Shown here piece by piece: positions 1,900 to 32,035 of a DNA stretch of 64,000 nucleotides. The translations under genes and the position numbers were made by a program. Every line of letters begins with the position of its first letter. The first letter of the stretch is position 1. Source of the DNA: Syntrophobacteraceae bacterium (lineage in GTDB: Bacteria > Desulfobacterota > Syntrophobacteria > Syntrophobacterales > Syntrophobacteraceae); contig JALOPI010000028.1 of NCBI GenBank assembly GCA_025453975.1, forward strand, positions 1 to 64,000. Reading direction: 5' to 3'. Below the pieces are notes generated by a model that was given only the letters and a program-made list of their open reading frames with translations, did not search any database and was not told the DNA's origin.

Positions 1900-1917
1900 G
1901 CGGGGACTGGAGGCAAG

Positions 1918-3663: not shown

Positions 3664-3756
3664 AGACCATCGGGGCTGGCGCGTGGCCCGGGCCGAAGGG
3701 CTGTCTTCCGGCCGGGGCCGACCAGGCCGGCACGGGGCTCGGCTCCATGGGTACAT

Positions 3757-3781
3757 GCCCCATCGGGGTTTTCGATGGGGC
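3757..3781 (+). other. Perfect 9-bp hairpin between wzz-like and kinase genes
   Basis: GCCCCATCG (3757-3765) and its exact complement CGATGGGGC (3773-3781) flank a 7-base loop GGGTTTT. No T-run follows, so it is not a standard intrinsic terminator. It may be an RNA processing or stability element separating the chain-length and kinase genes, or an operator. Confidence 0.5.
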
Positions 3782-3821
3782 TCAAACTGAAACCAAACCG
3801 TTCACAGGCTAACCATTAACC

Positions 3822-4688: not shown

Positions 4689-4746
4689 GCGCCTGAAGCC
4701 CGGACCCAGGGAACATTCAATCACGAGTGCGAAACGGAGGTTTTCC

Positions 4747-8114: not shown

Positions 8115-8535
8115 CATGGCCCCACGCCGAGCGCTCTCACCTCACGGACGAAAACCTGGACCCACCGCGAAGGGGCGAGGTCCGGCGAGCCGCTCGAGGG
8201 AGAGAAAGGAGGTGGAAGGGAGGCAGGGGGGAGTGTCCCGGGATGGGCTCTCTCTTCACGGTTCTCCGAGGGAGGACCGGAATTCGTGAAAGGGTTTTCA
8301 AGCTGGATGCCGCGTCGGTGTTCAGCTCAGCTTCAGATCAAGCCAAAGCCCGGGTGACCGGGTGACGGAAAGCCAACGGGTCCGATCGGGGCGCATCGCG
8401 GGAATGGAGGGGCACAAAGCTCCAGGTCGTGACGAGCCCGCGGGGATGCAGCCCACGCCATCGGACGGCCGGGTTGCCTGGAGTGAGGATCAACGTGAAG
8501 GAAAGAGCTTGATTTCACATTCAGGAGGAAAAGCA

Positions 8536-9282
8536 ATGAAGAAGCTCATCGCAAGCTTAGCAGTGGGCGCCATGATGCTCGTGGGCGCCGGCCAGGCCGC
8601 GGCCTATTTCGAGGAAGGCAAGCTGATCCGGGTGGTCTACGACAAGAACGGCGGCGGCGTTGAAGTCGCCACGGATTTGCTGGATATCAGCAGCTGGAAG
8701 AGCGCCGGTGTTTCTCCGACGAACGTTGTTGTGGGCGGCGGAGCGGCGGCCTGGAACGTTTCCATGTTTCCCGGAAAGTCCTTGAGCGATCTGGTGGTGG
8801 AGTATTATGCAAGCTTTTTCGAGCCTACCGATGCTTGGACCAGTGGACCTTTAACCGGCCAGCAGGCAGGCAACCGCAAATTCACGGGCTTCAATTCTGG
8901 GGCAGGCTCAAGCAGGACCTATTTCAGAACTCTCAACAACACCGGTGGTACCGTCATTGGCCAGGAAAGCAACCTGCAATCCCACTGGGTATCTTACACA
9001 CAGAGCGGGCTCGCTATCGGTAGCTTGAATGGCTTCATTCCCCTCAAGACCGCGGAAGAAAACTTGGGGCAATTGAGCGCTGGTGGATTCATCGACCAGG
9101 CCCTTTACTTCTACGATAATGCCAATGGAGCCAACCCCGTCGGGCTGAAGGTGGCGGTCATCCGGACCATGGCCGATGGAAGGACGATCATCAATCCCAG
9201 TGCCGTTCCCATCCCCGCCAGCGTTCTGCTGCTGGGCTCCGGTCTCCTGGGCCTCATCGGCATTCGGCGCAAGAACAGCTAG
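8536..9282 (+). CDS. Secreted protein with VPIP-type PEP-CTERM sorting signal
   Basis: 248 residues. Signal peptide MKKLIASLAVGAMMLVGAG with cleavage after AAA. The body is Gly/Ser/Asn-rich and of unknown function. It ends in PEP-CTERM-like sorting sequence: VPIPASVLLLGSGLLGL followed by IGIRRKNS, i.e. Pro motif, hydrophobic helix and basic tail, the exosortase recognition signal. It would be exported by Sec, then processed and released or anchored by an exosortase not encoded in this window. Start fixed by AGGAGG at 8523-8528. A longer upstream frame (from 8362) is rejected because the signal peptide begins here. Followed after 53 bp by the PstS-like gene. Confidence 0.85.
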   Translation: MKKLIASLAVGAMMLVGAGQAAAYFEEGKLIRVVYDKNGGGVEVATDLLDISSWKSAGVSPTNVVVGGGAAAWNVSMFPGKSLSDLVVEYYASFFEPTDAWTSGPLTGQQAGNRKFTGFNSGAGSSRTYFRTLNNTGGTVIGQESNLQSHWVSYTQSGLAIGSLNGFIPLKTAEENLGQLSAGGFIDQALYFYDNANGANPVGLKVAVIRTMADGRTIINPSAVPIPASVLLLGSGLLGLIGIRRKNS

Positions 9283-16500: not shown

Positions 16501-19500
16501 TTAGCTCCCGTATACGCATGGATGCCGAACGCTTCGGCCAGGATCCCGGAAGCCCCGGAAACCTTCCCCTCCAGGTTCATGCGGACGTCGCTCTCCTGCC
16601 GCTGGGCCCTGAGGTGCAGCACCCCGCCGCGGCCGCCGGCCTCCCCCGAGACGTCGACGGTCGAGCCCTCGAGAAGGTTCAGGAAACCCGAGGCAGAGGA
16701 AAGCTTCACCTCTCCTCCGTTAGCCCAGGCTCCGATTCCCGAAGCCCTCAGAAAACTCCCAGCATGAAGCGTCACGTCCCCGCCCGCGACCAAGGCGATG
16801 GTCCCGCCGCCCGACGCGTCGATGCGGCCCAGGACGTCGAGGCTGCCCGCGTCGGCGCCCAGGGAAACGTGATGAGCCGCCACGGCGTCGCCGGCGCCCA
16901 TGACGACGTCGCCGGTCCTGGCCCGCAGAGCGAGGGAGTGGTTGAAGCCGCCGGCCGAAAGGGCGGCATTGAGAGCGGAGAAATGATCCAGGGAAAGGGT
17001 TTCCATAGCGAAGGATCCACCGATTCCGCCTTTGGCATGCCCGAGGATCGTCCCGGCCAGGGTGACGGGCGCAAGGGGAGATGCGATGGAAAGGGAGCCC
17101 GCGTCTCCCTGGGTGCCGCCCGAGACGTCGATGCGTGAGCCCGCTTCCAGGCGGACACCGCCACCGACCGCACTCAGGGACACCGTGCCCCCCGGCCCCA
17201 GCTCAGTGCCGGCGGCCGTGATCACCGAGCCGCCGCGTAGTGTGACACCGTCGATCTCCCTCGTCCCCGTCGCGGCCAGTGCCACCATGCCGGAGCGCAG
17301 GTCGATGACGCCGCCCTGCTCGATGGAGCGCGCGGTGACGGAGACCTTCCCGCCGGGCGTCGCTCCGACGCCGGCGGCCCCGCCCGAGTGCCCCAGGGAA
17401 AACTGGCCCGTCAGGGCCAGCATTCGGTATTCGGTGGCTGTAAAGGGAGTGGAAGCGTCGGAGTAAAGGGAGCCGGTGATGCGGGCCGCCAGGATGTCCA
17501 GGTCGCCGCCCGCCGACAGCGAGCCCTTCCCCTTGAGGGTCAGGTCGCCCCGAACGTCGAAGACGGTTGTCCCGAAGCCGTCCAGCAGCACATCTCCCTT
17601 GGCCAGGACCAGCTCAGCGGCAGTCAGTCGCAGTTTGCCCTCGTGTGGAAGCGACGACCGGGCGGAAGTGGTCCCGGAGGTGTTGAGCACATCGATGCGC
17701 CCGGCACGCAGCGTGACGTCGGAAGCGCCGTCGCCCGAGGAGTCTTCCCCCGCGATGCGCGCGCTGTCCAGGGTGAGGAGACCGGGCACCGAGAGGTCGA
17801 AGTCGCCGGAGAAGAGGATGTCCTTCGAGCTTTTGAGGCTGATGTTCTGGAAGCTCCCGAACCGGCTCCAGAGCCGATCCGTTACGAAAAGGCCACTCCC
17901 GCCGGCGGAAGAGCCCTCCGGGAGAAAGGTGATTCTCTCGCCAATGAGGTTGAGGGAGCTGTTGTCCACCAGCAGGTCGCCCAGGAAGCTCATGGTGCTC
18001 ATTTCGAGGTTGATGCCGCGGGTGGCATGGATCAGGGAGCCGGCTTCGAGACTGATGTTTCCCCGGGGCGAATACAGGCCGACTTGGCCCACCCCCTGCT
18101 CCGACAGGGCCAGGACCCGCGCTCCCGACTGGACCAGGATCTCGCGGGAGGCGTGGAGGTCGACGACGGCGGCCTCCAGGCTGCTCCCCGGCGTCAGGGT
18201 GACGGTTTCCGTGGCGGCGTCACCCAGGACGATGCGGCCCAGACCGCCTCCGGAGAGCGAAGACCCGCTCACGAAGAGACTGCCCCGAAGCTCTGCCGGG
18301 ACGGGCGTGCCTGAATCGAAGTCGGGTGGAAGCTTGACCCCGAGGTCCTGGACGTGGATGTTCCTGGCGCTCAAGGCCACGGAGCCTCCCTCGAAGCCGT
18401 CCAGCGCCCTGGCCTGGAAGGCTCCGGCAAATAGCGTCGTGGAGGCCTGCAGGGACAGGCGGCCCCCATCTCCCGCCGTGAAGCTGGCCATGGTGAAGCT
18501 GCCTTCCTTGAGCACGTTCTCGGCGGGCCTCAACGAAAAAGCCTTCATGGGTCCCGAATCGGCCGACGTCCCGGGTAGGGCCATGCGCCCCATGACGAGC
18601 CGGTATCCCTCTTCCGTCCAGGCGTTGCCGCCTCGCGACGCATTCAGACCCAGGTCCGTGACGACCAGCGCTCCCGGAAGGAACGCAAACTCCTCGGGAA
18701 GCAGCGTGTAAGGGCCTTCCTTGATCAGATCGGAGGCCGGGAGGTGAACCACTTCCCCGGGAATGGCCATGGGATCATCGGGGAGGATCACGAAGCGTCC
18801 GGCTTTGCGCAAGGGGTTCAAGGAGCCGTCAATGCCGGGCTGGAATTGATAGGAGAAAACCTCCCCTCCTCCCGAGGTATCCACCCGGGAGCCCTCGCGG
18901 GCGATGATTTCAGCAGCTTGCAGAGTGATCGATTTCTCCGGCGCCCCATCGACTTCCACGGCGCGAAGCGTTTTCTTGTCTGGCAGTGTCCAGAACAGGT
19001 TGTCAAGGGACCCATAATTCACGGCTGGACCGCCGACCGTGCTGAGAAGGCTCGACCCGCCAAGGTAGACTCTCCCATCGTTACCCGACCCCACCAGTGC
19101 GACGGAGCCCATGGGGGCCGCCAGAACCCCCTGGTGGTCGATGAGGGGCGCCGCAAGTGTCAGGGAGCCTCCGGCCGAATAGACGGGTCGAGTGAGGTCC
19201 CGGGCGGTTCCACGCGTCTCGATCCACCCCGTCGCTTCGACTCGAAACTGGGAATGGGTGGTGGGGTAAATGCGCTCGGCCGTGAGCGTCAAACCGCCCG
19301 ACGCCGCGAGGTTCCCGCTCCAGACCGAGCCCAGGCCCTCGAGGCTGTATAGCCTGTCGCTGAACCGGATGTCCCTGGCTGCCGTGAGGGCCGCCGCCTC
19401 GAAACCGGAGAGCACCACTCGGCCTTGGACATCGAGCCAGTCGCCGGAGAGGTTCAACCGTCCCTGGCTGGGTGATCCGCCCGCGGTGTCGGGCCAGTAG

Positions 19501-22500
19501 GTGTTGATCAGCCGAATCCAGGGTGAGGCGAGACTCACTGTTTTGTCGCTATCACCCAGGATCCTGGGAGCATCGAGGGTCAGGCTTCTCGCAACGCGGG
19601 CATCGATGGAACCGTCGAACTGAAGGCCGTAACGGCTCGAGAAGGTCAGGGCGTCGAACCCGTCAGCCCCATACCGCGCCAGCCGGGAACTGTCCACGAC
19701 GAGGGGATTCTGGGTGTCCCTGCCGCTCACGGTCAGGGTGCCTCCGCGCAGGCTGGTTGAGCGTCCATGGCCCGTCAGGGTTCCGTCGGCAACCAGTTCG
19801 TCGAGGAATGTCAGGCTGATGGCGCCTGGATCGCCTCCGAGCACTGAAACGGAGGGGAGCCCCGACGCCGATTTGAATATCACCGGGACCGGCTCCGAAC
19901 CGGACACATCCAGAAGACTTCCCTGCTGGAGGATCAGGCTGCCGGTGGTGGCTTGCAGGGCAATCTCTCCCGCCGTCTGGGGCGTGAATCCAAGAGGCGC
20001 CAGGCGGTTCGCCGGCCTGCCGTCGGGCTTGTTGTAGCCTGGGGCGGACAGTATGCCGCCGGTTTGGACCTCGATGTCGTTTCGGCTCGCCCTGAGGCTG
20101 ATCTTTCCAGAGGGGGCGTCCAGTCGGCCCGCCATCTCTACACTGGGCCCCTCCAGGCTGATCTGACTGCCGGGACTCACGGACAGCGACGCTCCCTTCC
20201 CCACGGCGGCCTGTGCGGTATCGTTGGCCACCTGATCGATGCCGGGGATGAATCGCAGAACACCGGCCGAAGCCTTGAGGGAGCTCTTGCCGAGCAGATC
20301 GAGCGGGGTGTCGATCTGCCGAAGTCCGAGCCCCGGGGACTGGGCTCCGCCGCCCTTGGAGCTTCCCGACATCAGCAGGCCGGGTACGGTCGCGGCGTGG
20401 AGCGGTTCTTCGTACTTGACGGTGGATGGCCTCAGGGTCGCGCCGGCTTCCACATTCAGATCGTTGACGCTCTTGAGCTCGATCTGACTGAAACCGGTTC
20501 CGTCCAGCAGACCCTGAGCCAGGTGGAATCCGACGCCGCTCCCGAGGGAGGCCGAGGCTTCCCCGCCCGAATGCCGAGCCGCGGAGGGGGGGCTTGCGCT
20601 CACGCGCACCTCGTCCGCATGGGCCGCGAAGGTGCCTCCCTGGCTCCCCACAACGGAAAACCCCCGCAGGGTGGCATCGACGCCGATATAGGAGCCCATC
20701 AGCTCGAGCGTTCCCGCGTTACCCGAAGACAGCTTGCCGGACTCGCTGATGCCGTAGCCGCCGCTGACATCCACCAGAGCTTCCCGAGCCATGAAGAGCC
20801 CGTTTCCACTCCGGGTGCTGTCCGAGAGGGAAACCGAGCCTCCCTTGAGGTGCGCAAACGCCAGGCTCTCCCTCTTTCCTCCCCCCCCGGCGGGGCTGGC
20901 GTCGACGACCCTGCCGGAGACATCGAGAACGGAGTGAGGGCCGATCGTGACCAGGGAGTCCATCGCCACGTAGCGTTCATTAGGCTCCCCCAGGATGGAT
21001 GCCAGGGCGGTCAGATTGTCCCGCGCGGCGAGAGACACCGTTCCCGATGGGATGCTGACAGCTCCGTCGTGCTCGATGCTTCTGGCCATGGCCGAAAAGG
21101 TGCTTCCCGGGAGGAGGGCGATCCTGGCATCCTCATCCATGACATAGGACGTGTTGGCGTAGAGGCTGATCTGTCCCAGGCCGGCTCCGTTCAAGATGGC
21201 AGTGGACAGGACGGTCTCCCGCGGATCGACGGGGTCGCAGGGCTGGTCAGCGGGTCCAAGGTTCCGGCTCAGGGCAGGCGTCGCCGAGGACAACCGGACG
21301 GCATGGGTGATGAAATCGATGAGCTCGGCACTGGTCTTGGTGGGAGGGTCGCCGATGACGAGGGTCCCTCCCGCTGGCTCCCGCCATCCCATGGCGGTGA
21401 GATAGCCGAATTCGTCCAAGGGATCGCCCGATTTGGACTGGTAGAACCCGCGCGTCGCCGAGCCGTCCAGGACGCCGTCCAGGAGCACGTGGCGCGCGGC
21501 GATCCGCAGCATGCCCGCGTCGGCTCCCTGCGCCAGGGCGTCGACACGCTGGTGCAGAGGCACCGCTCCACCGGTGAACAGCCCCTTGTAGTCCTCCTTG
21601 ATGCCGAACCGCTTGTGGATGACGGACTGGGCATTGAGCATGCCGTCGTAGGTCAGCCATTGGGGAGCCGATGCGATGTCATAAAACCTGCGCCCGGAGA
21701 TGAGCGTGGTGGTGTCGAGCGCCCCCGCATCGTAGCGCGTCCCTCCTCCCTTGAAGAAGGCAGCGGCGCCGGGCTTCATCACCAAGTCCCCGTCGGAGGA
21801 CGTGATGAAGATGCTGCCGCCCTCGGTGCTGCGATCCATGGCCGTGAGCTCCCGGGACCTGAGGGAGCCCTGGATGTCCCCGATGGCCGTGCCCCCATGC
21901 ATCTCCAATTGGACCGTCTTCCCCTTGAGGGCGCCCTCCTTCTGGCCGTAATCATCCTTGAGGTTGACGCTGTTGAGCTGAGCTTCCACGATTCGGGCTG
22001 AGGCCGGCTTGCGCACCCATGCGCCGCTCACGTCGACGAGGCTCCCGGTCTCCAGGAAGACACGCTCGATGGCTTCGAGGCTGATTTCTCCGGATGGTGC
22101 CGAGAGTCCCCCCCGGTGCTCGATGCGCTTCACGCCTGCCTGCGGAAAGCTGGGGGACAGGGGATCGAGGCCTGAAAAGCGGATGCGTCCAGCCTGGTAG
22201 ACAAATGACTCGTGTGCCGTTTCGTCGGAATCGGCGACAGGGGACTCGGTGGTGCTTCCCACGCCCGTGGAGATGAGGTCCGTGGCAAAGAGCTCAACCT
22301 GGCCGCTTTTCTTGATGGCCGTGACCGCCCGGATCACTCCGTCCTGAAAGATTTCCCGGCCATACATGCCGACAAATCCGGTATCCGAAGCCAGGCGGCC
22401 CGTCGGGGCGTTGACCGCCTGGCCGGGCTCCCCGGAAACCTTCACCATTCGGGCGGCCCGGTTGCCGCTCGTGTCCGCCAGGAGCTCCACCTCGGAGCCC

Positions 22501-23165
22501 GCGGCCAGGCCGATCTGGCCCACGGGGGCGTCGATGGAGCCCTCGTTCACCACCGACTGGCCCATCAGGAAGACCGATCCCAGCTGGTCCACGGTGATGG
22601 CGCCCTGGCTCGCCACCGACGGACTCGGGTGTGCCTGGGAGCCGGCTCCCATGTAATCCTGGTATTTGAATCGGTTGATTCCGGCGAGGAAATCCTCGTC
22701 CACGGCATTGAGGGTCGCGGCGTTGAGGGAGTGAACGTTCACCTTGGAGCCGGGACCGAAAAGGATCCCGTTCTGATTGATGAGGTAGATCCGGCCGTCG
22801 GCGGTGAGCTTGCCCATGATGCGGCTGGGATTCAAGTCGTGGATGCGGTTGAGGGCCGCCCAGTCCTTGTTCCCCTTCTGATCGAAGTGTGTCCAGGCCT
22901 GCTCTCCGATATCGAAGGACTTCCAGTTGATGACGGCCCTGGGCTCGTCCTGCTGGATGGTCAGCTTCCTGGCCACGTCGTCCAGTTGGAACGAGGAGAC
23001 ACCCCGAAGGTTGATGCTCGTCGGAACCGGGAGGGAGTCGGCGGGGAGTGGCACCGCGGCGGGCATGCTCCCACGGAGACCGGGAACCGTGGGTCCGGCC
23101 AGGGTCGATGTCGGCGAAATGATCATTCCCGTGATGAGGAACATTACGAGGGTATCGCGCAGCAT
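13575..23165 (-). CDS. Giant TpsA exoprotein (filamentous haemagglutinin family)
   Basis: 3196 residues. Signal peptide at residues 1-24 (MLRDTLVMFLITGMIISPTS, cleavage near LAG). The TPS secretion domain (about 48-250) has NPSRIMGKL (112-120), NQNGI (130-134) and VNVHSLNAATLN (142-153). A very long series of short beta-helix rungs follows (GSxxDVSG, GxxSLxA patterns). Near the C-terminus are GDINAGRGSKTAVSATPPRL and GIIDAGEAGIAGTNVFLGAT, typical of the DUF3739 module. The end is acidic (PSPTEEDS), with no VENN motif, CDI toxin or membrane anchor. Start fixed by AAGGAG eight bases upstream. Substrate of the TpsB at 26401; probably a surface adhesin or matrix fibre. Confidence 0.85.
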   Translation of the reverse strand: MLRDTLVMFLITGMIISPTSTLAGPTVPGLRGSMPAAVPLPADSLPVPTSINLRGVSSFQLDDVARKLTIQQDEPRAVINWKSFDIGEQAWTHFDQKGNKDWAALNRIHDLNPSRIMGKLTADGRIYLINQNGILFGPGSKVNVHSLNAATLNAVDEDFLAGINRFKYQDYMGAGSQAHPSPSVASQGAITVDQLGSVFLMGQSVVNEGSIDAPVGQIGLAAGSEVELLADTSGNRAARMVKVSGEPGQAVNAPTGRLASDTGFVGMYGREIFQDGVIRAVTAIKKSGQVELFATDLISTGVGSTTESPVADSDETAHESFVYQAGRIRFSGLDPLSPSFPQAGVKRIEHRGGLSAPSGEISLEAIERVFLETGSLVDVSGAWVRKPASARIVEAQLNSVNLKDDYGQKEGALKGKTVQLEMHGGTAIGDIQGSLRSRELTAMDRSTEGGSIFITSSDGDLVMKPGAAAFFKGGGTRYDAGALDTTTLISGRRFYDIASAPQWLTYDGMLNAQSVIHKRFGIKEDYKGLFTGGAVPLHQRVDALAQGADAGMLRIAARHVLLDGVLDGSATRGFYQSKSGDPLDEFGYLTAMGWREPAGGTLVIGDPPTKTSAELIDFITHAVRLSSATPALSRNLGPADQPCDPVDPRETVLSTAILNGAGLGQISLYANTSYVMDEDARIALLPGSTFSAMARSIEHDGAVSIPSGTVSLAARDNLTALASILGEPNERYVAMDSLVTIGPHSVLDVSGRVVDASPAGGGGKRESLAFAHLKGGSVSLSDSTRSGNGLFMAREALVDVSGGYGISESGKLSSGNAGTLELMGSYIGVDATLRGFSVVGSQGGTFAAHADEVRVSASPPSAARHSGGEASASLGSGVGFHLAQGLLDGTGFSQIELKSVNDLNVEAGATLRPSTVKYEEPLHAATVPGLLMSGSSKGGGAQSPGLGLRQIDTPLDLLGKSSLKASAGVLRFIPGIDQVANDTAQAAVGKGASLSVSPGSQISLEGPSVEMAGRLDAPSGKISLRASRNDIEVQTGGILSAPGYNKPDGRPANRLAPLGFTPQTAGEIALQATTGSLILQQGSLLDVSGSEPVPVIFKSASGLPSVSVLGGDPGAISLTFLDELVADGTLTGHGRSTSLRGGTLTVSGRDTQNPLVVDSSRLARYGADGFDALTFSSRYGLQFDGSIDARVARSLTLDAPRILGDSDKTVSLASPWIRLINTYWPDTAGGSPSQGRLNLSGDWLDVQGRVVLSGFEAAALTAARDIRFSDRLYSLEGLGSVWSGNLAASGGLTLTAERIYPTTHSQFRVEATGWIETRGTARDLTRPVYSAGGSLTLAAPLIDHQGVLAAPMGSVALVGSGNDGRVYLGGSSLLSTVGGPAVNYGSLDNLFWTLPDKKTLRAVEVDGAPEKSITLQAAEIIAREGSRVDTSGGGEVFSYQFQPGIDGSLNPLRKAGRFVILPDDPMAIPGEVVHLPASDLIKEGPYTLLPEEFAFLPGALVVTDLGLNASRGGNAWTEEGYRLVMGRMALPGTSADSGPMKAFSLRPAENVLKEGSFTMASFTAGDGGRLSLQASTTLFAGAFQARALDGFEGGSVALSARNIHVQDLGVKLPPDFDSGTPVPAELRGSLFVSGSSLSGGGLGRIVLGDAATETVTLTPGSSLEAAVVDLHASREILVQSGARVLALSEQGVGQVGLYSPRGNISLEAGSLIHATRGINLEMSTMSFLGDLLVDNSSLNLIGERITFLPEGSSAGGSGLFVTDRLWSRFGSFQNISLKSSKDILFSGDFDLSVPGLLTLDSARIAGEDSSGDGASDVTLRAGRIDVLNTSGTTSARSSLPHEGKLRLTAAELVLAKGDVLLDGFGTTVFDVRGDLTLKGKGSLSAGGDLDILAARITGSLYSDASTPFTATEYRMLALTGQFSLGHSGGAAGVGATPGGKVSVTARSIEQGGVIDLRSGMVALAATGTREIDGVTLRGGSVITAAGTELGPGGTVSLSAVGGGVRLEAGSRIDVSGGTQGDAGSLSIASPLAPVTLAGTILGHAKGGIGGSFAMETLSLDHFSALNAALSAGGFNHSLALRARTGDVVMGAGDAVAAHHVSLGADAGSLDVLGRIDASGGGTIALVAGGDVTLHAGSFLRASGIGAWANGGEVKLSSASGFLNLLEGSTVDVSGEAGGRGGVLHLRAQRQESDVRMNLEGKVSGASGILAEAFGIHAYTGAKTLGAADFTALQTDTALYMANASAIESRLLSALERDGWEGEALQLLPGLELRSTGNMTLGTQWDLTTWRFGGKPGALTLRAGGHLSLQADLVDHPTPVGNLFSSTALHSWYFNLVAGADLSGADVATIGNGAWDLTIQAGRQVYTESGGIRLASARDMVIGPGAATGYMISSSIRGSVGSYTGIVSGRAGRDLKISGGAIQTALGDIDVQVGRDLVLENVRDFGTSLDMFRSLGSVRTFGESPNGVSGMARYWEYAGGGDIRLKVEGSVKGGVNQGADANLNAWDFAYGLRVPRTWGASYQGRDATEGIATLGGGSIRTLVGGDFLTQAGTFGKGDFVLFAGGSVDGRFLVKDGEADIRAASNIGRGPMGVVLEGFDARITAAALGHADIAAIVSPTIARSPFTGTEWTLGYTEDSAVRIQAALGDVTLRGDSPYHDISSSFARLEKVLPPTLEVTAGRDILLRSELALAPSPLGSLDLVAGRDIDGFHIRAGGSEARALIAMSDMDPSGVYGYRRGFGVSDLFNRYLHAPWPLHGGDPTHSSIRAGGEIRNLQLYLPEAAEITARGDIRDIYLFGQNVLPTDITSVYAGGSLLFSSSSAGSLDTGIEMAGPGALMVQARDSIDLGTTRGIQSLGNTYNAILGDKGSDVFVAAGFMNGLGTDAVAGFFRELQTMGKEYSDLLFQGKSQEALQLVEDLRTQFMQPLLGPTQLSSPGRINMTTSQISTASGPDDIFVLSAGDLNVGRSTFFSDEQQRKGTGIYTAAGGAINIFSHGDINVNESRVMSFRGGDITLWSDRGDINAGRGSKTAVSATPPRLTFVGDALVLVFNPPAVGSGVRAVTFDPDGVEGPLVEPPAGDIYLFAPEGIIDAGEAGIAGTNVFLGATQILNVENITFSAGSVGVPAAGEAGASIGALSGAATATEGVRDVQQSASVASGRNGGGMDQSATEGFMAKWLEVKVLSFDVDEPSPTEEDS

Positions 23166-23211
23166 GATGCAGGCTCCTTCAAAATGGAATCGATGTTCAC
23201 GCCGGTCGGAT

Positions 23212-24480
23212 TCAAATGGCGGAGCCCAGGGCGGCCAGCTCCTTGCGGAGCGCGGAGGCATCCTTGAACCCATCGATTTTACGGGCTATTCCACCCTGCC
23301 TGTCAAACAGGATGACGAGGGGGAACCCGTTCTGCTGGTATAGCTCGTGGTACTGTTTTTCCCGGTCCGAATTGACCCGCACCCAGATGTAATCGTCGCG
23401 CAGGGCCTTGATGCGGGGATCGGCGAAGGTCTCCTCGAAGAGCTTTTTACAGTAGCCGCACCAGTCGGCGTAGAGGACGAGGACGGCGGGCTTTCCCTGG
23501 CTCCTGCCCCGGGCCAGTCCCTCGTCGTGATCCTCCGTCCAGGATAATTCCTTGTCCTTGAGCGACGAGGCCTTCACGATGGAGACAACCTCCACGTCCA
23601 GGACGACGCTCCTGCCGGCCAGGGGCGGGTTGAAGTCCACCGTGAAGGATCGGCCGTCGGTGGAGACGATCCTCCCCTGCCGATCCTTCAGGGTGAACGA
23701 AGCTCCCAGGCGCGGCGTCAGGGTGATGGTCGCCATCTCTCCCGCAACCTTGATCTCCGCCGCGCCGAGCTCTTCCTCGACGCGCTCGCCGTCTCTGGCC
23801 AGGAGCTCCAGCCCGACATCCGCGTCGGTGACCTCCACGGTTCGAGCCTTGAAATACGGCACCCAATCCACCTCCCGACCCAGCTGAGGAAAGGTCTTGT
23901 AGCGGGAAGTGTACTCGTGCGCCGACAGGCGCACCTTCCGCGGCATGGTCCTCGCGCAGGGGAAATCCAGCTTCTTCGCGGGATCTGAAACGCCGAAGGC
24001 TTTCTCGGGGGGGATGTTCGCCCTCTTCCTCTGCCCTGCCTCCATGCCGAGGATGACCTCGCCCAGGAATAAGGGAACGGTCCCGGCACCTCCCACCACT
24101 GGCTCGGGGCCCCACTCACGGCGATCCTGGTATCCGTCCGCTTTGGCCACCGCCTTGTCCATGGCGATTTCCCGGCGGGTGGTCCTGGCGACTTTGCCGT
24201 CCTCGTCCCAGGCGGTAAAATGGACTTGCACCAGGTCGCCTTTCTGAGCCCGGGTGGATTCCTCCTTGAATTCCAGGTCCACGTCGATGTGGACGGGATT
24301 TCCTCCGTCTTGCGCTTGCCGGAAAGCGCTCTCGAGGGTCTTTCGGGCCGTCTCGGCCCCCTTGGGTCCTGGCGGAGGGATCGTCTGCCAGTCGGCCAAG
24401 GAGGGCGCGGGAAGGCAAAGCATGAGCCCGACGAAGATGGCCGAAAAGAGTCGGCGTGGGTAAATCGCTCCGATTCTCAT
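23212..24480 (-). CDS. Periplasmic FKBP-like / thioredoxin fusion protein
   Basis: About 422 residues. Signal peptide (FSAIFVGLMLCLPAPSLA). The FKBP-like region (about 65-305) includes KGDLVQVHFTAWDEDGKV, FLGEVILGMEAGQRKRANIP with AFG (the SlyD/FKBP 'GMxxGExxxxxxPxxAYG' pattern) and a closing FTVDFNPPLAGRSVVLDVEV. A thioredoxin fold follows (about 320-422) with active site WCGYC (Cys 341 and 344) and cis-Pro GFPLV. One chain thus combines prolyl isomerase-like and thiol-redox folds. It lies directly upstream of TpsA, ending 46 bp before it, so it probably maintains the exoprotein or its porin/TpsB in transit. Start at 24480 chosen for the signal peptide; ATG 24507 possible. Confidence 0.75.
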   Translation of the reverse strand: MRIGAIYPRRLFSAIFVGLMLCLPAPSLADWQTIPPPGPKGAETARKTLESAFRQAQDGGNPVHIDVDLEFKEESTRAQKGDLVQVHFTAWDEDGKVARTTRREIAMDKAVAKADGYQDRREWGPEPVVGGAGTVPLFLGEVILGMEAGQRKRANIPPEKAFGVSDPAKKLDFPCARTMPRKVRLSAHEYTSRYKTFPQLGREVDWVPYFKARTVEVTDADVGLELLARDGERVEEELGAAEIKVAGEMATITLTPRLGASFTLKDRQGRIVSTDGRSFTVDFNPPLAGRSVVLDVEVVSIVKASSLKDKELSWTEDHDEGLARGRSQGKPAVLVLYADWCGYCKKLFEETFADPRIKALRDDYIWVRVNSDREKQYHELYQQNGFPLVILFDRQGGIARKIDGFKDASALRKELAALGSAI

Positions 24481-24596
24481 GGATGGTGGTTTTCCTTTCG
24501 GGACCATCGACTCATCCTGGCCCGTGTCATCTACGCGACCGAACCTGCCTCCGCTCCTTGGGAGAGTCCCCCCCGGGACCGACGGCGTCCCGTTGG

Positions 24597-26249
24597 TTAA
24601 AAGCCCGCGTTGACGTCGAACTGGAAGATGTCGATGGCAAGGGGGGGGCCGGAGATCTCATTGCTGGTGAGCCATTTGGCCGTGAGCCAGACATTCTTGT
24701 AGAGACCCAGCTCGGCGCCGAGGATCCAGCCCTCTGCATTGGTGCCGCCCCCATGGAAGTCCGAGTCGGTGAAAGCATCCATGACGGCGTCGGCCTCGAG
24801 GTGCTTGTAATAAAGGTACGCGTTCCATGCCATGAAGCTCCGGGCCTTGGGGTGCCCCACCTGGAGCCCGAGCTGATAGCCCTCCACCTCCTCCGGGATG
24901 CTGCGAATGCTCGTCCGTCGCGCCACGTCGGTCTTGTCGAACCCCAGGTTGCGCACGTAGTCGCCCACGAGAATCACGTGGACGGGCTTCCAATAGCCGA
25001 TGTCCAGCTGGCCGGTGACGTTGAGCTCCCGAAATTCCGAAGCCAGCGCCACCCGTATGCCCTGGGGCTCGATGTTGAAGAGTGTGTTGCCTTTCTGTAC
25101 AAAGAGAGGCGCGGTGTGGTCGTTCTCGTCGGGACGCTGAATGGTGTTGGCCTTGCCCACGGTGTTGACGTAGTCATAATAGGCTACCCCCACCTTGGCG
25201 GTGACATCCGGGTCGGGGCGGGCCTCGGCCCCCACCTGGACCCCGTAGAGCCACTTGTCGCGCTCGGTGAATTCCAGTTCCTGGAGCGGGAATGCCCCTG
25301 CCGTTGCAAACAGCTTCCACCGGTCGGAGAGCTCGTGGGTGTAGCTGCCGGCGACGCCCTCGAAGTTGAGATCGTGATCCCACACGAGGTCCGTGTGGAA
25401 GAACGGGCTCGGGTGGCGGCCTCCCCAGAAATTCAGGCTTTCCAGGGGCTTCCAGTGCAGATAGGCCTGGTCCAGGACGATGCCGTCCTTGTTGAAGTAG
25501 TCTCCCAGGGTCTCGTTGGTGGAGACGGGATCGTCCTCGTTGCCCGTGGAGATGCGCATGTTGGCCGACAGGGTCTCGTGGATCCTGGCCGAGGCGCTCA
25601 AGCGGGCGCGGATGCGAAAGCGGTTGCGGTCCTGGGTTGTGTTGAGCAGGTCGCCGGAAACTGTGCCGTTCTTTCCGACCTTCAGAAAAGCCGCGTTGTC
25701 CTTGTCATAGAATTCTCCCTGGTAGCGGAGTCGAATGTCCCCGCCGAATCGAACGCGCTGGGCCCAGTCGGAGGAAGAGGAAGCCAGCCTGGCGTCCTTG
25801 GCCTTCTCCTCCTGGATCTCCGCCTTCACGCGCTCCTGGACATCCTGCCTGACTTCGCGGGCCACCTTCCTGGAGATTTCGCGAACCACCTCCTCTTCCC
25901 GGGATGCTGGAACCAGGGCCACCCCCACCTCTCCGGACGGTGCGCGCCCATGGCGGGCCAGGAACTGGTCGGCCTCCTCGGGGCTGATGACGCCTTTTTG
26001 CGTCAGAAGCTCGATGACCGCGCTCATGTCACGGCCCGTCCGGGCCCCCGGGGATCCTTCCAGGATGGATGCAGCCTCCTGGGCGCTGATGACCCCTTTC
26101 ATTTTCAACAGCTCGATCATCCCCTCCATGGGGTCGGCCGAGGGCGATCCCACAGCAGGAGCCCTCCCCTGGGTCTGGGCCGACGGCATCCCGATCCATG
26201 CGAAAAGAAGCACCACTGTTGCCGCTATCCCTGCCATCAACTTGTTCAT
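24597..26249 (-). CDS. Putative outer-membrane porin
   Basis: 550 residues. Signal peptide MNKLMAGIAATVVLLFAW. Two near-repeats, MIELLKMKGVISAQEAASIL and VIELLTQKGVISPEEADQFL, are the short helical motif common at porin N-termini. A charged coiled coil (EEEVVREISRKVAREV) follows, then a beta-barrel starting VRFGGDIRLRYQGEFYD and ending in Phe (FQFDVNAGF), the BAM signal. It fits the 'putative porin' family. GGGGGAGAGGG ribosome site upstream of 26249. Its constant place in this operon suggests an accessory channel for, or partner of, the secretion system; a substrate is not evident. Confidence 0.75.
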   Translation of the reverse strand: MNKLMAGIAATVVLLFAWIGMPSAQTQGRAPAVGSPSADPMEGMIELLKMKGVISAQEAASILEGSPGARTGRDMSAVIELLTQKGVISPEEADQFLARHGRAPSGEVGVALVPASREEEVVREISRKVAREVRQDVQERVKAEIQEEKAKDARLASSSSDWAQRVRFGGDIRLRYQGEFYDKDNAAFLKVGKNGTVSGDLLNTTQDRNRFRIRARLSASARIHETLSANMRISTGNEDDPVSTNETLGDYFNKDGIVLDQAYLHWKPLESLNFWGGRHPSPFFHTDLVWDHDLNFEGVAGSYTHELSDRWKLFATAGAFPLQELEFTERDKWLYGVQVGAEARPDPDVTAKVGVAYYDYVNTVGKANTIQRPDENDHTAPLFVQKGNTLFNIEPQGIRVALASEFRELNVTGQLDIGYWKPVHVILVGDYVRNLGFDKTDVARRTSIRSIPEEVEGYQLGLQVGHPKARSFMAWNAYLYYKHLEADAVMDAFTDSDFHGGGTNAEGWILGAELGLYKNVWLTAKWLTSNEISGPPLAIDIFQFDVNAGF

Positions 26250-26400
26250 GACGCCCTCTCCCCCCGCAGCGACCGGCCGATGTCGAGCCATCCAAAGATA
26301 CGAACAAAAACAATCCTGTTCATCGCGCACCCTGGATTCCATGGCAGCTCGCCCGCCTGAGGAATCCCAGCTCTTGCGAGCCATCTCTCATGCGACCCCG

Positions 26401-28161
26401 TCAGAATCTGAGCTTCACGCGGAAATGAAGGCGATTCTCGCCCGCTTCGGTGTGATCCTGCTCCGAAAGGGCGATGGCCCAGCACAAGTCGTAGTCGAAA
26501 TACCGTGTAACGCTCCCGCGAATGCCGATCCCGACCCCGTTCAGGAAATGCTCGTCTTCCTGCGCCGGGAGCGCATCCTGGATCCAGAGGCTGCCCTGAT
26601 CGTAAAATGCATAGGGGACTCCCCGCAGCTTGTCCTCCAGCTGAAGAAGCCGGGCCAGGTCCGGAGCACTCAGCTCCACCGTGACGTGGACGGCGTCGTC
26701 CCCCAGGACCTCGCTCTCGAGATAACCGCGAACGCTCTCCATGCCTCCCGCCGCGTATTGCTCGTTGGAGATGAGCGGCTGGTCCGCCATCTGGCCGTCA
26801 GCCTTGAGGTAAAGGCTCCATTGGGCGGGCAGCTTCTGGACGCGCTCGATGCCCGCGGTGGCTAGGAGATAGTTCCCCCGGGCCTTGAAACGCTTGTTCG
26901 CAAACTCCTCGGCATCGGTCACCAGACCTCGAAAGGTCCCGTTGATGCCACCGCTGAACTGGGTGACACCCCATTCATCAGGAAGGGATGCGTTGTAAGC
27001 CGCGGAGAACGGCATGTACTGGATGGGAGTACTGTCCGAGGCCGCGGTGGAGCCGAAATCCAGAGTGTCCTCAAAGTCCTTGTAGTCTGCTCCGAGAGTC
27101 ACGCTTTGGCTGTAACTCTTGTACGAAGGGAGCGGCAGAACGTACCGTCCCCCCACCATCATCCCCTTCCCCACGGTGTTGAAGCCGTCGCCGAAGGCCG
27201 TGGCGCTGTCGGTCCAGAGGGCGTAAAGCGCCACGGAGTGCCGTTCGTTCCATGGCGGTGGCATGACGTAGGAAGTGGCGATGACCTGCACCTCCTCCGG
27301 GTCCAGGGGGGAAGTCTGGTATTGAAAGGAGGCCGAATGGTCCAGCTGCCAGAGGTTGTCGAAGCTGACGAGCCCGTTGAGGCGAAGCTCCGTCGTGTCG
27401 GGACTGAAGCGGTTGCTCAGCTCCAGATGCCCATGAAGGGGGAAGGAGTCTTTCACCTGCAGCTCCACGTCCACCGTGCCGGGCTCTTCCCCCGGGCCGA
27501 TGGATGGGGTGATTTTGAGACTTGGAGTACTGTTGGCCCGGTTGAGCTCCTCATTGAGCCTCGGTACCCAGAGGATCTCGCCCGGCGTGAAGGAGGGGAC
27601 GCGCTTCATGACCCTCTCGGCCCTGTAGTAACGGTTGCCCGTGACCCTCACCCTGCCCACCGTGGTCTCCTGGACCTCGAGGGTGACGGTCCCCTGCTCG
27701 ACGAGCTGCTGAGGGACGCTGACCATGACCGTGGGATAGCCGGCCTCATGGTAAAAGTTTTCAAGGGTGCTGCGTGCCTGCTCCACGTCCTCGGCCGTTT
27801 GCGCGGGTCCGCCATAAGGGGCGAGGATCTCTGCGAGCCGCTCCTCGGAAAACAGGCTGTTTCCCACCACCACGAAGGCTCGGATGGGAAAGGTGGGCCC
27901 GTCTTCGGGGGGTTTTTGACGGGAGTCCGCCGGATCGGCCGGCATCTCGGCGTGGCTCAAATCCTCCATCATGCTCTCGATGGATGGAGGGGGTGGTCCA
28001 TCCTGAGCATGGGCGGTCGTGCACAGGAGAGCCAGGCAGGCCGCCAGGACCGCCCGAGCCCACGGCTTTCGGGAAGGAATGCGCGCTGGCCGAGCTTCAG
28101 TGGCCTGAACGATCAAAGAGTACGGTCGCATGAGGAGGATCTTCTTGAGGATGGCTGTCAA
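26401..28161 (-). CDS. TpsB transporter, ShlB/FhaC/HecB family
   Basis: 586 residues. Signal-like segment (VLAACLALLCTTAHA), a Pro-rich stretch, two POTRA domains (about 90-245: FPIRAFVVVGNSLFSEERL; VGRVRVTGNRYYRAERVM), then a 16-strand-type barrel with RGYLESEVLGDDA corresponding to the conserved RGY/VRGY tip loop, ending FRVKLRF. The barrel would export the TpsA across the outer membrane. The start is TTG 28161, overlapping the upstream stop (TTGA) with AGAAGG seven bases before; ATG 28131 is an alternative. Located in the TonB-ExbBD operon rather than alone with TpsA, which is unusual. Confidence 0.88.
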   Translation of the reverse strand: MTAILKKILLMRPYSLIVQATEARPARIPSRKPWARAVLAACLALLCTTAHAQDGPPPPSIESMMEDLSHAEMPADPADSRQKPPEDGPTFPIRAFVVVGNSLFSEERLAEILAPYGGPAQTAEDVEQARSTLENFYHEAGYPTVMVSVPQQLVEQGTVTLEVQETTVGRVRVTGNRYYRAERVMKRVPSFTPGEILWVPRLNEELNRANSTPSLKITPSIGPGEEPGTVDVELQVKDSFPLHGHLELSNRFSPDTTELRLNGLVSFDNLWQLDHSASFQYQTSPLDPEEVQVIATSYVMPPPWNERHSVALYALWTDSATAFGDGFNTVGKGMMVGGRYVLPLPSYKSYSQSVTLGADYKDFEDTLDFGSTAASDSTPIQYMPFSAAYNASLPDEWGVTQFSGGINGTFRGLVTDAEEFANKRFKARGNYLLATAGIERVQKLPAQWSLYLKADGQMADQPLISNEQYAAGGMESVRGYLESEVLGDDAVHVTVELSAPDLARLLQLEDKLRGVPYAFYDQGSLWIQDALPAQEDEHFLNGVGIGIRGSVTRYFDYDLCWAIALSEQDHTEAGENRLHFRVKLRF

Positions 28162-28865
28162 CGAGGTGCCTTCTGGGGCTGGCCCGCTTGGAGCTGCTTG
28201 ACCTTGAGCTTTTCTTTCTCGATCTTGTCACGGTACTCCGCCGCGAGGTTCTCGATCTCCACCTTCTTGACCTGTGTGAATGGCTCGTTCTGGAACATGC
28301 TCGTCACGAGGCCCTTCTTTTCGTACTTTTCCACCAGCTCCGTCCCGAGAAGGGCGAGCCGGGCATTGTGGGACTCACACTGCTCCAGCTTGGCTTCGGT
28401 TCCCTTGAGCTGGGAGTCGATCCCCTGATTCTCGCCTCGGAGCTTCTTGATCTCGTCGCCCCGTTCCCGGGCCACCGTGGCGATCTCCGCGGCCTTGTCC
28501 TCCAGAGCCCTGTACGCCCCCCTGGCCTGATTCAGGGCCTCCTGGGCCTCCTTTCCGCCAGCCTCGAGCTCGGCCACCCTGGCCTCCAGCTTCTTGGCCA
28601 CATCCACGATCTGGCCGCCGGCCTGGCGCAGCTTCTCCAGCTCGGCCGCGGCGGCGCGCTTCTGGCTCTCGCACGTGGCCTTCTGGTCCCGCTCCTCGGT
28701 GTACTTCTTCTGGATGGCCGCCACCTTCTTGTTCAGCCCGGCGACTGCTTCCTCATGCTCCCTGCGCTCGATGCCCAGGAGATGCTTGCCGTATCCGTAT
28801 CCGGCTCCGACTCCCGCACCGAGCATCACCAGTCCCAGAAGTACTTTCAAAATGGTTCGCTTCAT
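28158..28865 (-). CDS. Single-TM coiled-coil protein of the secretion operon
   Basis: 235 residues. One N-terminal TM (LKVLLGLVMLGAGVGAGYGYG, about 6-26) anchors a long Glu/Lys/Ala-rich coiled coil (about 32-185) that should extend into the periplasm. The tail is basic and Gln-rich (KVKQLQAGQPQKAPR). No family recognised; the layout resembles periplasm-spanning spacer proteins. Ribosome site GAGGTGA before the ATG. Its stop overlaps the TpsB start, implying coupled expression, so it may bridge the inner-membrane energiser and TpsB. Confidence 0.7.
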   Translation of the reverse strand: MKRTILKVLLGLVMLGAGVGAGYGYGKHLLGIERREHEEAVAGLNKKVAAIQKKYTEERDQKATCESQKRAAAAELEKLRQAGGQIVDVAKKLEARVAELEAGGKEAQEALNQARGAYRALEDKAAEIATVARERGDEIKKLRGENQGIDSQLKGTEAKLEQCESHNARLALLGTELVEKYEKKGLVTSMFQNEPFTQVKKVEIENLAAEYRDKIEKEKLKVKQLQAGQPQKAPR

Positions 28866-29004: not shown

Positions 29005-29694
29005 TCACCCCTGGGAAGAGATGCGAATGTTCACGCGCCTGGGCATTCCCTCTGGGGGCGGCTGGCTGATGGAGGAGCCCCCCAGGGCATCCCGCAGCGC
29101 CTGATCCATCCTGGAATCCCCGGAAGAGGCCAGGATCTGGTAATGAACGACGGTCCCCCTCTGATCCAGTTGGATCTTCACGGTGGCCTGGAGCTTTCCC
29201 CTGGGGATGCCCCCATTCCGCTCCATGACCTCCTGGACCCGCTTGCGCAGCTCGTCCTGAACGACCTTGAGATACCCGGCGTACTGCCGCATGAGCTCGG
29301 CGCCTCCCCCACCGACGAGTGACCGGCCCCCCTTGTTGCCCACCAGCCCGAAGCCGTCCGATCCCGCGCCGCCTTCGGCGTCCACGCCCAGGTTCTTCCC
29401 CGCCGGCTTATCGTCTCGGCTTTCGTCCGCGGCCTGCTTCCTCTCGGGCTGGACAACTTCCTCCTTCTTCTTCATCTCCGGCTCGGGAGGCTTTTCCACC
29501 TTGGGGGGAGGGGGCGGCGGGACTCGAAGCAGTGTCACCATCTGGGCCCGCTTCTTACGACTCTCGCCGTCGTCGTTCATGACGAGCCTCACGATGGCAA
29601 GAGCACTGATCAGGAGGATGCCCAGGACGAAAGCACCCGAAGCGATCCAGATCCATCTGGAGGACGAGCTGCCTGCGCTGCCGTTTTCTTCCAT
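29005..29694 (-). CDS. TonB-family energy transducer
   Basis: 229 residues. Cytoplasmic N-terminus with one TM (WIWIASGAFVLGILLISAL, about 14-35), a Pro/Lys-Glu periplasmic linker (PPPPPPKVEKPPEPE, then KKKEEVV), a Gly-rich segment, and a C-terminal alpha-beta TonB/TolA-like domain (GKLQATVKIQLDQRGTVVHY; SGDSRMDQALRDAL). It would couple the ExbB-ExbD proton channel to an outer-membrane partner. No TonB-dependent receptor gene is adjacent; the outer-membrane proteins in this operon are TpsB and a porin. Confidence 0.82.
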   Translation of the reverse strand: MEENGSAGSSSSRWIWIASGAFVLGILLISALAIVRLVMNDDGESRKKRAQMVTLLRVPPPPPPKVEKPPEPEMKKKEEVVQPERKQAADESRDDKPAGKNLGVDAEGGAGSDGFGLVGNKGGRSLVGGGGAELMRQYAGYLKVVQDELRKRVQEVMERNGGIPRGKLQATVKIQLDQRGTVVHYQILASSGDSRMDQALRDALGGSSISQPPPEGMPRRVNIRISSQG

Positions 29695-29795: not shown

Positions 29796-30206
29796 CTATT
29801 TGACCAGTTTCTGTGTCACCAGCCCCAGCTGGCTGATCTCGAGGCGCGCCAGGATATCCAGGACCTCGATGACACTCCGGTAGAAGACTTTTTCATCGCC
29901 CTTGATGACCACCGGGAAATTGGGATCCGCCGCCTTGAACTGGCGCAGGCGATCTTCCAATTCCTGGAGTGTCACCGGATAGGTGTCCAGGAAGATGCGG
30001 CCCTCGGCGGCGATGGTGATGGCCTTGGTCGTGGGCTTCACCTCGCTGGCCGCCGCACTGGCCTTGGGAAGGTTCACCTTGATGCCCTGAACCGCCGCCG
30101 TGACCGTGATGATGAACACGACGAGCAGTGTCCAGGCGAGGTCCAGGAGTGGCGTGACATTGATCTCGTCGAAAGCCTTCACTTCTTCGCGAATGCGTTG
30201 CCTCAT
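29796..30206 (-). CDS. exbD: ExbD/TolR-family proton-channel subunit
   Basis: 136 residues. Cytoplasmic N-terminus EINVTPLLDLAWTLLVVFII with the channel Asp at residue 22 in the single TM, then a periplasmic ExbD domain (ITIAAEGRIFLDTYPVTLQE ... VVIKGDEKVFYRSVIEVLDI). Its ATG overlaps the stop of the upstream ExbB fusion (ATGA), so the two are translationally coupled. Works in the inner membrane with ExbB and the TonB-like protein. Confidence 0.9.
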   Translation of the reverse strand: MRQRIREEVKAFDEINVTPLLDLAWTLLVVFIITVTAAVQGIKVNLPKASAAASEVKPTTKAITIAAEGRIFLDTYPVTLQELEDRLRQFKAADPNFPVVIKGDEKVFYRSVIEVLDILARLEISQLGLVTQKLVK

Positions 30207-32035
30207 CCCCTCCTCCCGTAGGTCATCTCCACCTTCATGGAGAATTCGTCCACGAACGTGTTGAGATCCAGCGTCAGGCCCTTGATCTTGGTCACCAGGT
30301 AGTTGTAGGCGAAGAGGGCCGGAATGGCGACGATGAGGCCGAACACCGTGGTGGCCAGGGCCGAGGCGACGCCCGGGGCAATGGCCGCCAGGTTGGCCTC
30401 ACCGGCTTCGGCCATGGCGGCGAACGTGTTCATCACGCCCCACACGGTGCCCAGAAGGCCAAGGAACGGCCCGCCCGCGATGGCCATGGTGAGGAAGATG
30501 AGCCATGAATTCATGTCCTTGTTCTGAAGCGCGAAGGCGCGGTCCAAGGCGGCATTGAAGGCTCGCAGGCCTCGATCGCCGAGCACCTTGGACCCCGGGT
30601 TCTCCGAAACGGACGCCTTGGCCTCGAATTCATGGCATCCGGCGGCGTAGACCTGATAAAGGCACGATCCTGGATACTTCATGCCCTGGCCGGCCACGGC
30701 CAGGGGGTCGGGATCCTGGACGAAAGCCCTGGAGAACACGGTGTTCTGCTTCTCCATGACCCAGAAGGTCAGGGTTTTCCTGAGAAAGACCACCCAGGTG
30801 GCGGCGGCGAAAAGTGCCAGAAACCCGCAGATGACCCAGCCGTCGAGACTCAGGTTCTTGATGATGGTCTTGAAGTAGAAGACCGGCAGACCTCCTGCCT
30901 CTCCGCTCTCCTCCTCGGCCGGCTTGACAAGTCCCTCGGTGGGGCCCTGGCTGATGTAGGCCGCCCTAGCCCATGCGGCGGAGCGCGCGCCACGGGCGAC
31001 TTGGACCTCGTCCAGCTCCGCCGCCATGGCGTTTTGCCCCTTCAAGGAAGCGCCGATGGCGATTTCCGTCGGCGGGTTGGGAAGGCCCCCCGGGATGTCG
31101 ACGGAAGCCGTCAGGACCCCGTCCAGGTAGATGGAGATCTTTTTGGCCGGCTCCGCCGTCACCGCCACGAAATGCCAGGTGTCGGGCGCGAGGGTGGTCG
31201 TCTTTTCGGTGGCGGCGCTCCATCCCTCGCTGGAGGATGCCTTGACGTAGAGGCTCAGCTGGTCGATGGCCACGATGAAGCGCTCCGGTTGTGCCAGCGA
31301 CTGCTGAACCGGCTTGGCCAGCTGCTCCGGTGCATCGCCCTCCCAGGAGAATAAGCGCGCATCCTGCTGAGCCTGGGGGACTTTGAGCCAGGTGGAGAAG
31401 GTGAAGCCCTTGGAGAGGTCCAAGGATGAGGACTTGGGAAGGACAAGCTTTTCCCCCGCGCCGCTGAGGGAGATGCCCTGGCCGATGATGGAGGGCACCC
31501 CGCCCTGGCCTGTGAATTCGGCGGCGTGGTTGTTGTAAGCCGTCTGGTCCCTGGGCGGACCTTCAGGCTCGCCCATGTGATAGACCAGGAGGGCGTTGAC
31601 ATCGTAAACTCCTCCCTTGTCCTGGGCGGCGGGGGCGGCCTTGTTTCCGTAATACATCCAGAGGGTCTGATGGCTTCTGCCGCCGGCGAGTCTGGGAATG
31701 CGAACCCACACCAGGGCCATTTCATCCACAGGCTGATAGGATTCGATATGATACTTGAGGGGCTCCTTGTCGTCGGCATTGATGAAGCGAATGTCCGAGC
31801 CGTCCTCCTGGGCACTGGCGAAGTTGAAGTTGCCCGTGTGCAAACGGATGAGCAGGGGGAATTCAGAAACGCTGCCCTTGAGCTCCGCCCCGGTTTCCGA
31901 TGTGTCCACCGTGATTTTCTTGCGATGCTGCCACTTCTCATCCCACCAGGCCATGGCTGAGGACGCGTGGGCCAGAAGAACGAGGAGAATGGTCATGGCC
32001 AGCCACCGAGGGGTCTTGTCCTGCCTTGCGATCAC
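30203..32035 (-). CDS. DUF2341-LamG-ExbB fusion (proton-channel protein with periplasmic carbohydrate-binding-like head)
   Basis: 610 residues. Cleavable signal peptide (1-29, ends SSAMA). DUF2341 about 31-125 (WWDEKWQHRKKITVDT; LIRLHTGNFNFASAQEDGSD; LWMYYGN). LamG/concanavalin-like domain about 145-360 (FTFSTWLKVP; TWHFVAVT; ISIYLDG; ELDEVQVARGARS). TM about 405-425, then a MotA/TolQ/ExbB domain with two TMs (about 510-585; GPFLGLLGTVWGVMNTF; VASALATTVFGLIVAIPALF). The proton channel thus carries a large periplasmic sensor or binding head. GTG start with AGGAGGT seven bases upstream. First gene of the secretion operon; the regulatory element at 32216-32233 lies about 180 bp upstream. Confidence 0.85.
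   Translation of the reverse strand: MIARQDKTPRWLAMTILLVLLAHASSAMAWWDEKWQHRKKITVDTSETGAELKGSVSEFPLLIRLHTGNFNFASAQEDGSDIRFINADDKEPLKYHIESYQPVDEMALVWVRIPRLAGGRSHQTLWMYYGNKAAPAAQDKGGVYDVNALLVYHMGEPEGPPRDQTAYNNHAAEFTGQGGVPSIIGQGISLSGAGEKLVLPKSSSLDLSKGFTFSTWLKVPQAQQDARLFSWEGDAPEQLAKPVQQSLAQPERFIVAIDQLSLYVKASSSEGWSAATEKTTTLAPDTWHFVAVTAEPAKKISIYLDGVLTASVDIPGGLPNPPTEIAIGASLKGQNAMAAELDEVQVARGARSAAWARAAYISQGPTEGLVKPAEEESGEAGGLPVFYFKTIIKNLSLDGWVICGFLALFAAATWVVFLRKTLTFWVMEKQNTVFSRAFVQDPDPLAVAGQGMKYPGSCLYQVYAAGCHEFEAKASVSENPGSKVLGDRGLRAFNAALDRAFALQNKDMNSWLIFLTMAIAGGPFLGLLGTVWGVMNTFAAMAEAGEANLAAIAPGVASALATTVFGLIVAIPALFAYNYLVTKIKGLTLDLNTFVDEFSMKVEMTYGRRG

Follow-up and report, generated by a model that had tools for sequence, protein, structure and literature searches.

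A DUF2341-LamG-headed ExbB/TolQ channel subunit pairs with DUF3739-type two-partner secretion exoproteins, probably as part of a dedicated motor

The 64,000-nucleotide stretch of Syntrophobacteraceae DNA analysed here (the window) encodes an ExbB/TolQ-type channel subunit fused to a secreted DUF2341-LamG head, and across genomes this fusion is found nearly one to one with two-partner secretion (TPS) exoproteins of the DUF3739 type. This pairing across phyla is what appears to be new and undescribed; the novelty is limited to it because both the fusion architecture and a similar Pseudomonas aeruginosa locus are already in the literature. We consider it probable that the fusion belongs to a dedicated, Tol/Ton-type proton-driven motor for DUF3739-type TPS, its head forming a periplasmic docking crown. 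By genomics the dedicated-motor reading is well supported, and the job of the motor for the TpsA exoprotein is one that we infer. The genes follow one another on the same strand in this order:

30203..32035, minus strand: DUF2341-LamG-ExbB/TolQ fusion, 610 aa, GTG start; signal peptide 1-29, DUF2341 about 30-150, LamG about 151-375, TM1 397-440, TM2 512-544, TM3 549-606
29796..30206, minus strand: ExbD/TolR-type partner, 136 aa (PF02472, 7.4e-28), with an NVTPLLD motif containing the transmembrane Asp
29005..29694, minus strand: TonB/TolA-type energy transducer, 229 aa (PF13103, 6.7e-12; TIGR01352 above cut-off)
28158..28865, minus strand: membrane-anchored long coiled-coil protein, 235 aa, assigned from its sequence (Pfam gives coiled-coil noise only)
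26401..28161, minus strand: TpsB transporter of the ShlB/FhaC type (Omp85 superfamily), 586 aa (PF03865, 2e-17; POTRA_2 PF08479, 3e-16)
24597..26384, minus strand: Porin_5 outer-membrane barrel (PF16930, 3.8e-138)
23212..24507, minus strand: secreted protein with FKBP-type PPIase and thioredoxin domains, 431 aa (Pfam)
13575..23273, minus strand: giant TpsA exoprotein, 3232 aa; TPS domain 104-281 (PF05860, 6.9e-20), DUF3739 3045-3161 (PF12545, 1.4e-31)

The initial annotation read 30203-32035 as a single gene joining a signal peptide, DUF2341, LamG and an ExbB/TolQ core, and Pfam, AlphaFold and Foldseek all bear this out on the minus strand (translation of the plus strand is interrupted by internal stops). 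The Pfam matches lie well above cut-off for DUF2341 (PF10102, residues 78-145, 5.8e-18), Laminin_G_3 (PF13385, 194-354, 2.5e-18) and MotA_ExbB (PF01618, 491-590, 1.4e-27; 96.4 bits for a curated cut-off of 22.9). In the AlphaFold model (mean pLDDT 88; 28 sequences), a helix at 8-24 is followed by an all-beta head at about 37-377, a short low-confidence stretch at 380-385 separates the head from TM1, and further helices (458-474 and 487-509) lie between TM1 and TM2. Foldseek relates the head to concanavalin-like domains and the C-terminal third to TolQ/ExbB structures, where TM-scores calculated over the target reach 0.87. At the N-terminus a signal peptide ending ...SSAMA-WW can be read, and the homologues inspected have an equal layout, a hydrophobic leader followed by a W-W...W..R motif. 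As to a head translated separately, reading of the fusion sequence found no methionine just before TM1. The end of the fusion gene, with its stop codon, shares 4 bp with the beginning of ExbD (30203-30206), and an upstream scan for promoters and terminators found nothing. A chance fusion or assembly artefact is ruled out, since the fusion is intact in unrelated genomes, full-length homologues with the same partners occurring in many of them. The architecture is neither unique nor new, DUF2341 appendages on such channel subunits being mentioned in PMC12505986 (2025). A likeness of the LamG domain to clostridial neurotoxin binding domains fell below the Pfam cut-off and was read as the common concanavalin-like fold, not as functional kinship.

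The sequence supports a channel-competent ExbB/TolQ protein behind this secreted head, as the initial annotation had it: the conserved pore-lining Thr, Pro and Gly of TM2 and TM3 are present and align with TolQ, P523, G526, G529, T530 and T563, among others, being invariant in 28 sequences. T530 lies in LLGTVWG and T563 in ALATTVFGL, aligned with LFGTVWG and ALIATAIGL of TolQ. Among PDB sequences the fusion-family profile scores best against TolQ, and by TIGR scores the motor core is nearer TolQ/TolR than ExbB/ExbD, the fusion falling short of both the TolQ equivalog (TIGR02796, 128.9 for a cut-off of 221) and the ExbB equivalog (TIGR02797, 95.3 for a cut-off of 206.2). In a tree of ExbB/TolQ cores, all 37 sampled fusions form one clade (support 99/99) in which no headless member was seen, the four unlabelled rows being the same fusion genes fetched twice. 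The tree also holds a second clade of long ExbB-type proteins (391-627 aa; L106-L135, G644), each with a second ExbB nearby, for example L135 (627 aa), L119, L134 and L126; this clade is possibly of the DUF3450 type.

The partner genes are those of a motor and of a secretion system. The window ExbD scores 85.3 bits against the tolR model TIGR02801, under cut-off; the pattern for its transmembrane Asp motif is found in 33 of 41 ExbD proteins, and PMLD or SMLD can be read in 7 of the 8 others. The TonB protein is laid out as an N-terminal transmembrane segment, a Pro-rich stretch and a TonB_2 C-terminal domain, and the coiled-coil protein presumably spans much of the periplasm. A TPS domain in TpsA and POTRA-ShlB domains in TpsB identify two-partner (type Vb) secretion; a classical Ton system is not what the cluster encodes, its outer-membrane proteins being ShlB and Porin_5 with no TonB-dependent receptor. 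No TonB box was recognised in TpsB N-termini. A conserved strand, [LI]xVEV[LI]GFG, lies at or near the end of DUF3739-type TpsA proteins, in many of them two residues short of it; of 36 aligned pieces 31 show the pattern, and the window TpsA has LEVKVLSF (13575-13700, minus strand). The FKBP-thioredoxin protein is also found near TpsB in three relatives from the window's phylum, and several proteobacterial clusters have a PpiC-type PPIase. Elsewhere in the window, a c-di-GMP-I riboswitch match (8332-8481, plus strand; 42.6 bits, E 5.7e-05) lies just upstream of a PEP-CTERM surface-protein gene whose start is within the reading frame 8362-9282. An exopolysaccharide/exosortase-like locus (493-7143, plus strand), with genes recognised by sequence for an outer-membrane barrel, a chain-length determinant, a tyrosine kinase and a TPR lipoprotein, is also near the TPS-motor operon.

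In a sample of 395 genomes from the window's phylum, six encode a full-length fusion: the window's own and those of five other genera, one of which belongs to the same family. So do 22 of the 369 genomes sampled from the GTDB class that contains Pollutimonas, and 11 records of plasmids or megaplasmids, among them some from Klebsiella, Burkholderia, Methylosinus and Methylomagnum; the search scored the top three candidates per genome, so that the genome counts are strong and not exact. Outside the window's phylum, the homologues are in alpha-, beta- and gammaproteobacteria. Using profiles derived from the window and from annotated plasmid clusters, we characterised the gene content of 42 neighbourhoods, 33 of which have more than 12 kb on each side of the fusion. 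ExbD directly follows the fusion in 41 of the 42 and in all 33 with long flanks, and the same counts hold for a TonB after the fusion. Near the fusion, the 33 long-flank neighbourhoods contain Porin_5 in 29 cases, the coiled coil in 28, TpsB in 29 and TpsA in 27; in two genomes (G431 and G531) the stretch analysed gave no TpsB match, but the contig carries a TpsB at a distance of 26-28 kb. As a control, the headless ExbB/TolQ/MotA genes of 26 fusion-bearing genomes were inspected by eye, and among the matches listed one lay less than 20 kb from a TpsB, a headless ExbB (G395:C31:602964-603571) directly beside a different TpsB.

Three second-copy loci consist of fusion, ExbD and TonB and have no porin; V-type ATPase genes adjoin two of these loci and type II secretion genes the third, so that a strict tie of the motor to TPS does not hold. 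The V-type ATPase neighbours, seen by eye, belong to copies with neither porin nor TpsB (L091/L092 in G531, L097/L098 in G545), and in the core tree the second copies of G531 and G545 form a branch of their own with G514b. At L099/L100 (G514), L023 and L026 the motor or TPS cluster has type II secretion genes as neighbours, as hxc lies beside pdt in P. aeruginosa, and a short protein of G514 combines a TPS domain with a PEP-CTERM-like end.

The genome-wide match with DUF3739 is close to perfect in two independent samples. In the 369 genomes the fusion is present in 22, DUF3739 in 23 and both in 21 (Fisher p 6e-31, a value that ignores the shared ancestry of genomes and physical linkage), and in the window's phylum (395 genomes) DUF3739 and the fusion occur in exactly the same six. 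Fragmentation of the assemblies could account for the three mismatches: in G499 the fusion lies 434 bp from a contig start, in G595 and G496 DUF3739 lies at a contig end, and in G496 the C-terminus of a fusion occupies the first bases of another contig. TPS in general was rejected as the correlate, the TPS domain being found in 122 of the 369 genomes, 102 of them with no fusion. Neighbourhoods and co-occurrence together tie the headed channel genetically to a TPS exoprotein, far more tightly than the window alone could show. The co-occurrence partly reflects physical linkage and co-inheritance. In G395, several DUF3739 TpsA genes lie on contigs with no TpsB among the matches listed (C25 twice, C30) and a single fusion-TpsB cluster is on C33, which fits one motor-linked TpsB serving several TpsA; PUMA3-type clusters of R. 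palustris and Janthinobacterium are reported to have one TpsB for several TpsA (PMC2729926). Within the literature searched, we found no mention of DUF3739 and nothing relevant on a link between TPS and a motor.

The conservation of the head bears on what it may contact. The mean pairwise identity is 0.63 for TM2-TM3, 0.47 for DUF2341, 0.32 for LamG and 0.29 for the cytoplasmic part, and DUF2341 has 14 invariant residues compared with 6 in LamG; judged from these alignments, the DUF2341 module is under stronger constraint than the lectin-like LamG module. Because the conservation sits in DUF2341 and not in LamG, DUF2341 would more likely serve to dock a protein than to recognise a sugar. The suggestion that exopolysaccharide gates the channel through the head is in turn unlikely: LamG is weakly conserved, and the predicted topology places the head in the periplasm, so that contact with extracellular polysaccharide is not expected. 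There is a precedent in Serratia, where a periplasmic extension of the HasB-linked ExbB can bind a TonB-type C-terminal domain and affect function (PMC9008036).

In the dedicated motor that we favour, the fusion would be the channel (A) subunit, assembled with the ExbD and TonB encoded directly after it. By analogy with TolQ/ExbB, five copies would surround two ExbD helices, and their five DUF2341-LamG modules would thus make up a crown facing the periplasm. This crown, mainly through DUF2341, may dock the TonB C-terminal domain and the coiled coil and steer them toward outer-membrane partners, where the motor would do mechanical work; the candidate partners are the stalked porin, TpsB and the C-terminus of TpsA on the periplasmic side. 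The likeliest task of the motor would concern the export of a very long TpsA and its anchoring at the surface, which it would drive, complete or hold. Whether DUF3739-type TPS is a proton-powered type V subtype, the motor energising export, or the holding or moving, of a 3000-4600-residue TpsA, is a further claim that we regard as possible and somewhat doubtful. According to PMC5422565, type V secretion is powered neither by a hydrolysable energy source nor by a gradient, and transport is possible in vitro with no added energy, which counts against the motor reading.

The porin offers a different partner for the same motor. In most clusters its gene comes directly after TonB. The model of the window Porin_5 (pLDDT 77.7, with low values over the first third of the chain) has a barrel, a helical N-terminal region and a 44-residue periplasmic stalk helix at 115-158; its nearest solved fold is OmpM1, an outer-membrane attachment porin of Veillonella (Foldseek top hits 8byt/8bym/8bys), to which its identity is low (about 16%); unlike OmpM1, it shows no identified SLH domain. 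Helix-hairpin motifs (LVxQGVLT) were noted in the N-terminus of the window porin (24597-26384, minus strand) and its relatives. In most relatives a VRVPYVPE segment precedes the stalk helix, and by sequence this segment or the TpsA terminal strand could be a TonB contact. The motor might then energise Porin_5 for uptake or envelope tethering, with the TPS pair merely a co-regulated neighbour, for example in phosphate starvation, and the corresponding P. aeruginosa operon is indeed phosphate-regulated (PMC7035377, PMC4971064). We nonetheless consider this unlikely: a plugless porin is not a TonB-dependent transporter, VRVPYVPE cannot be made out in the porin of the window itself, and co-regulation alone hardly explains a genome-wide match to DUF3739 TpsA across phyla.

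Motors are also at work in gliding, as Agl-Glt and GldLM. A Tol-like load-bearing or moving device, in which the motor pulls the stalked porin or a TpsA anchor to hold or move an adhesin on the surface, would suit both the TolQ/TolR-like core and the joint presence of a coiled coil, an OmpM-like stalked porin and a giant filamentous exoprotein. Yet no gliding-specific genes were identified, and the likeness to the gliding motors is one of layout only; this makes such a device quite improbable in our judgement. That head and motor instead report the status of TpsA or the envelope to a VreA/FecR/ECF-sigma circuit is hardly credible, for although STN, FecR and ECF genes are near the cluster in 8-9 neighbourhoods and PUMA3/VreI regulates the P. 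aeruginosa locus (PMC2729926), such genes are absent from most clusters and from the window, where a search for VreA/VreI/VreR-like genes gave no STN, ECF or FecR match.

Should the dedicated-motor reading be true, DUF2341 heads, DUF3739 and the exbB2-exbD2-tonB4 operon would gain a shared function. Because this motor set is found near one to one with one subtype of TpsA in distant phyla and P. aeruginosa has a counterpart, the question of power in TPS becomes directly testable. That counterpart looks like the pdtB-exbB2-exbD2-tonB4 operon, described as uncharacterised, within a locus of the PUMA3/VreI regulon (pdtA/pdtB-exbB2-exbD2-tonB4-PA0696-PA0697-PA0698-PA0699; PMC7035377, PMC2729926). 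Mutants in PA0695 (the tonB homologue) and tps showed no loss of virulence in zebrafish, in a study that did not address secretion (PMC2729926). By gene list (PMC7035377), the two loci share TpsA/TpsB, ExbB, ExbD, TonB and a putative porin; the window differs in its gene order, in having the FKBP-thioredoxin protein and in lacking YbjN, PpiC and ECF/FecR/STN. The P. aeruginosa gene list matches, in order, the cluster on a Klebsiella quasipneumoniae plasmid.

Other known systems share single features with the fusion. DUF2341 and DUF3450 are reported, in the passages seen of PMC12505986 (mBio, 2025), as N-terminal appendages on non-flagellar A subunits; these 'generic ion transporters' carry the same DUF2341 appendage, for which those passages give no function, context or TPS link. 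The long, HasB-linked ExbB of Serratia marcescens likewise has a signal peptide and a periplasmic N-terminal extension, but one of about 50 residues that is Ala/Pro-rich and disordered and not DUF2341-LamG (PMC9008036). TolQ of Tol-Pal and ExbB of Ton are alike to the fusion in fold, in the TM2-TM3 core motif and in a partner gene with a transmembrane Asp, whereas the fusion forms a clade of its own and carries a folded head of about 350 residues where TolQ and ExbB have none.
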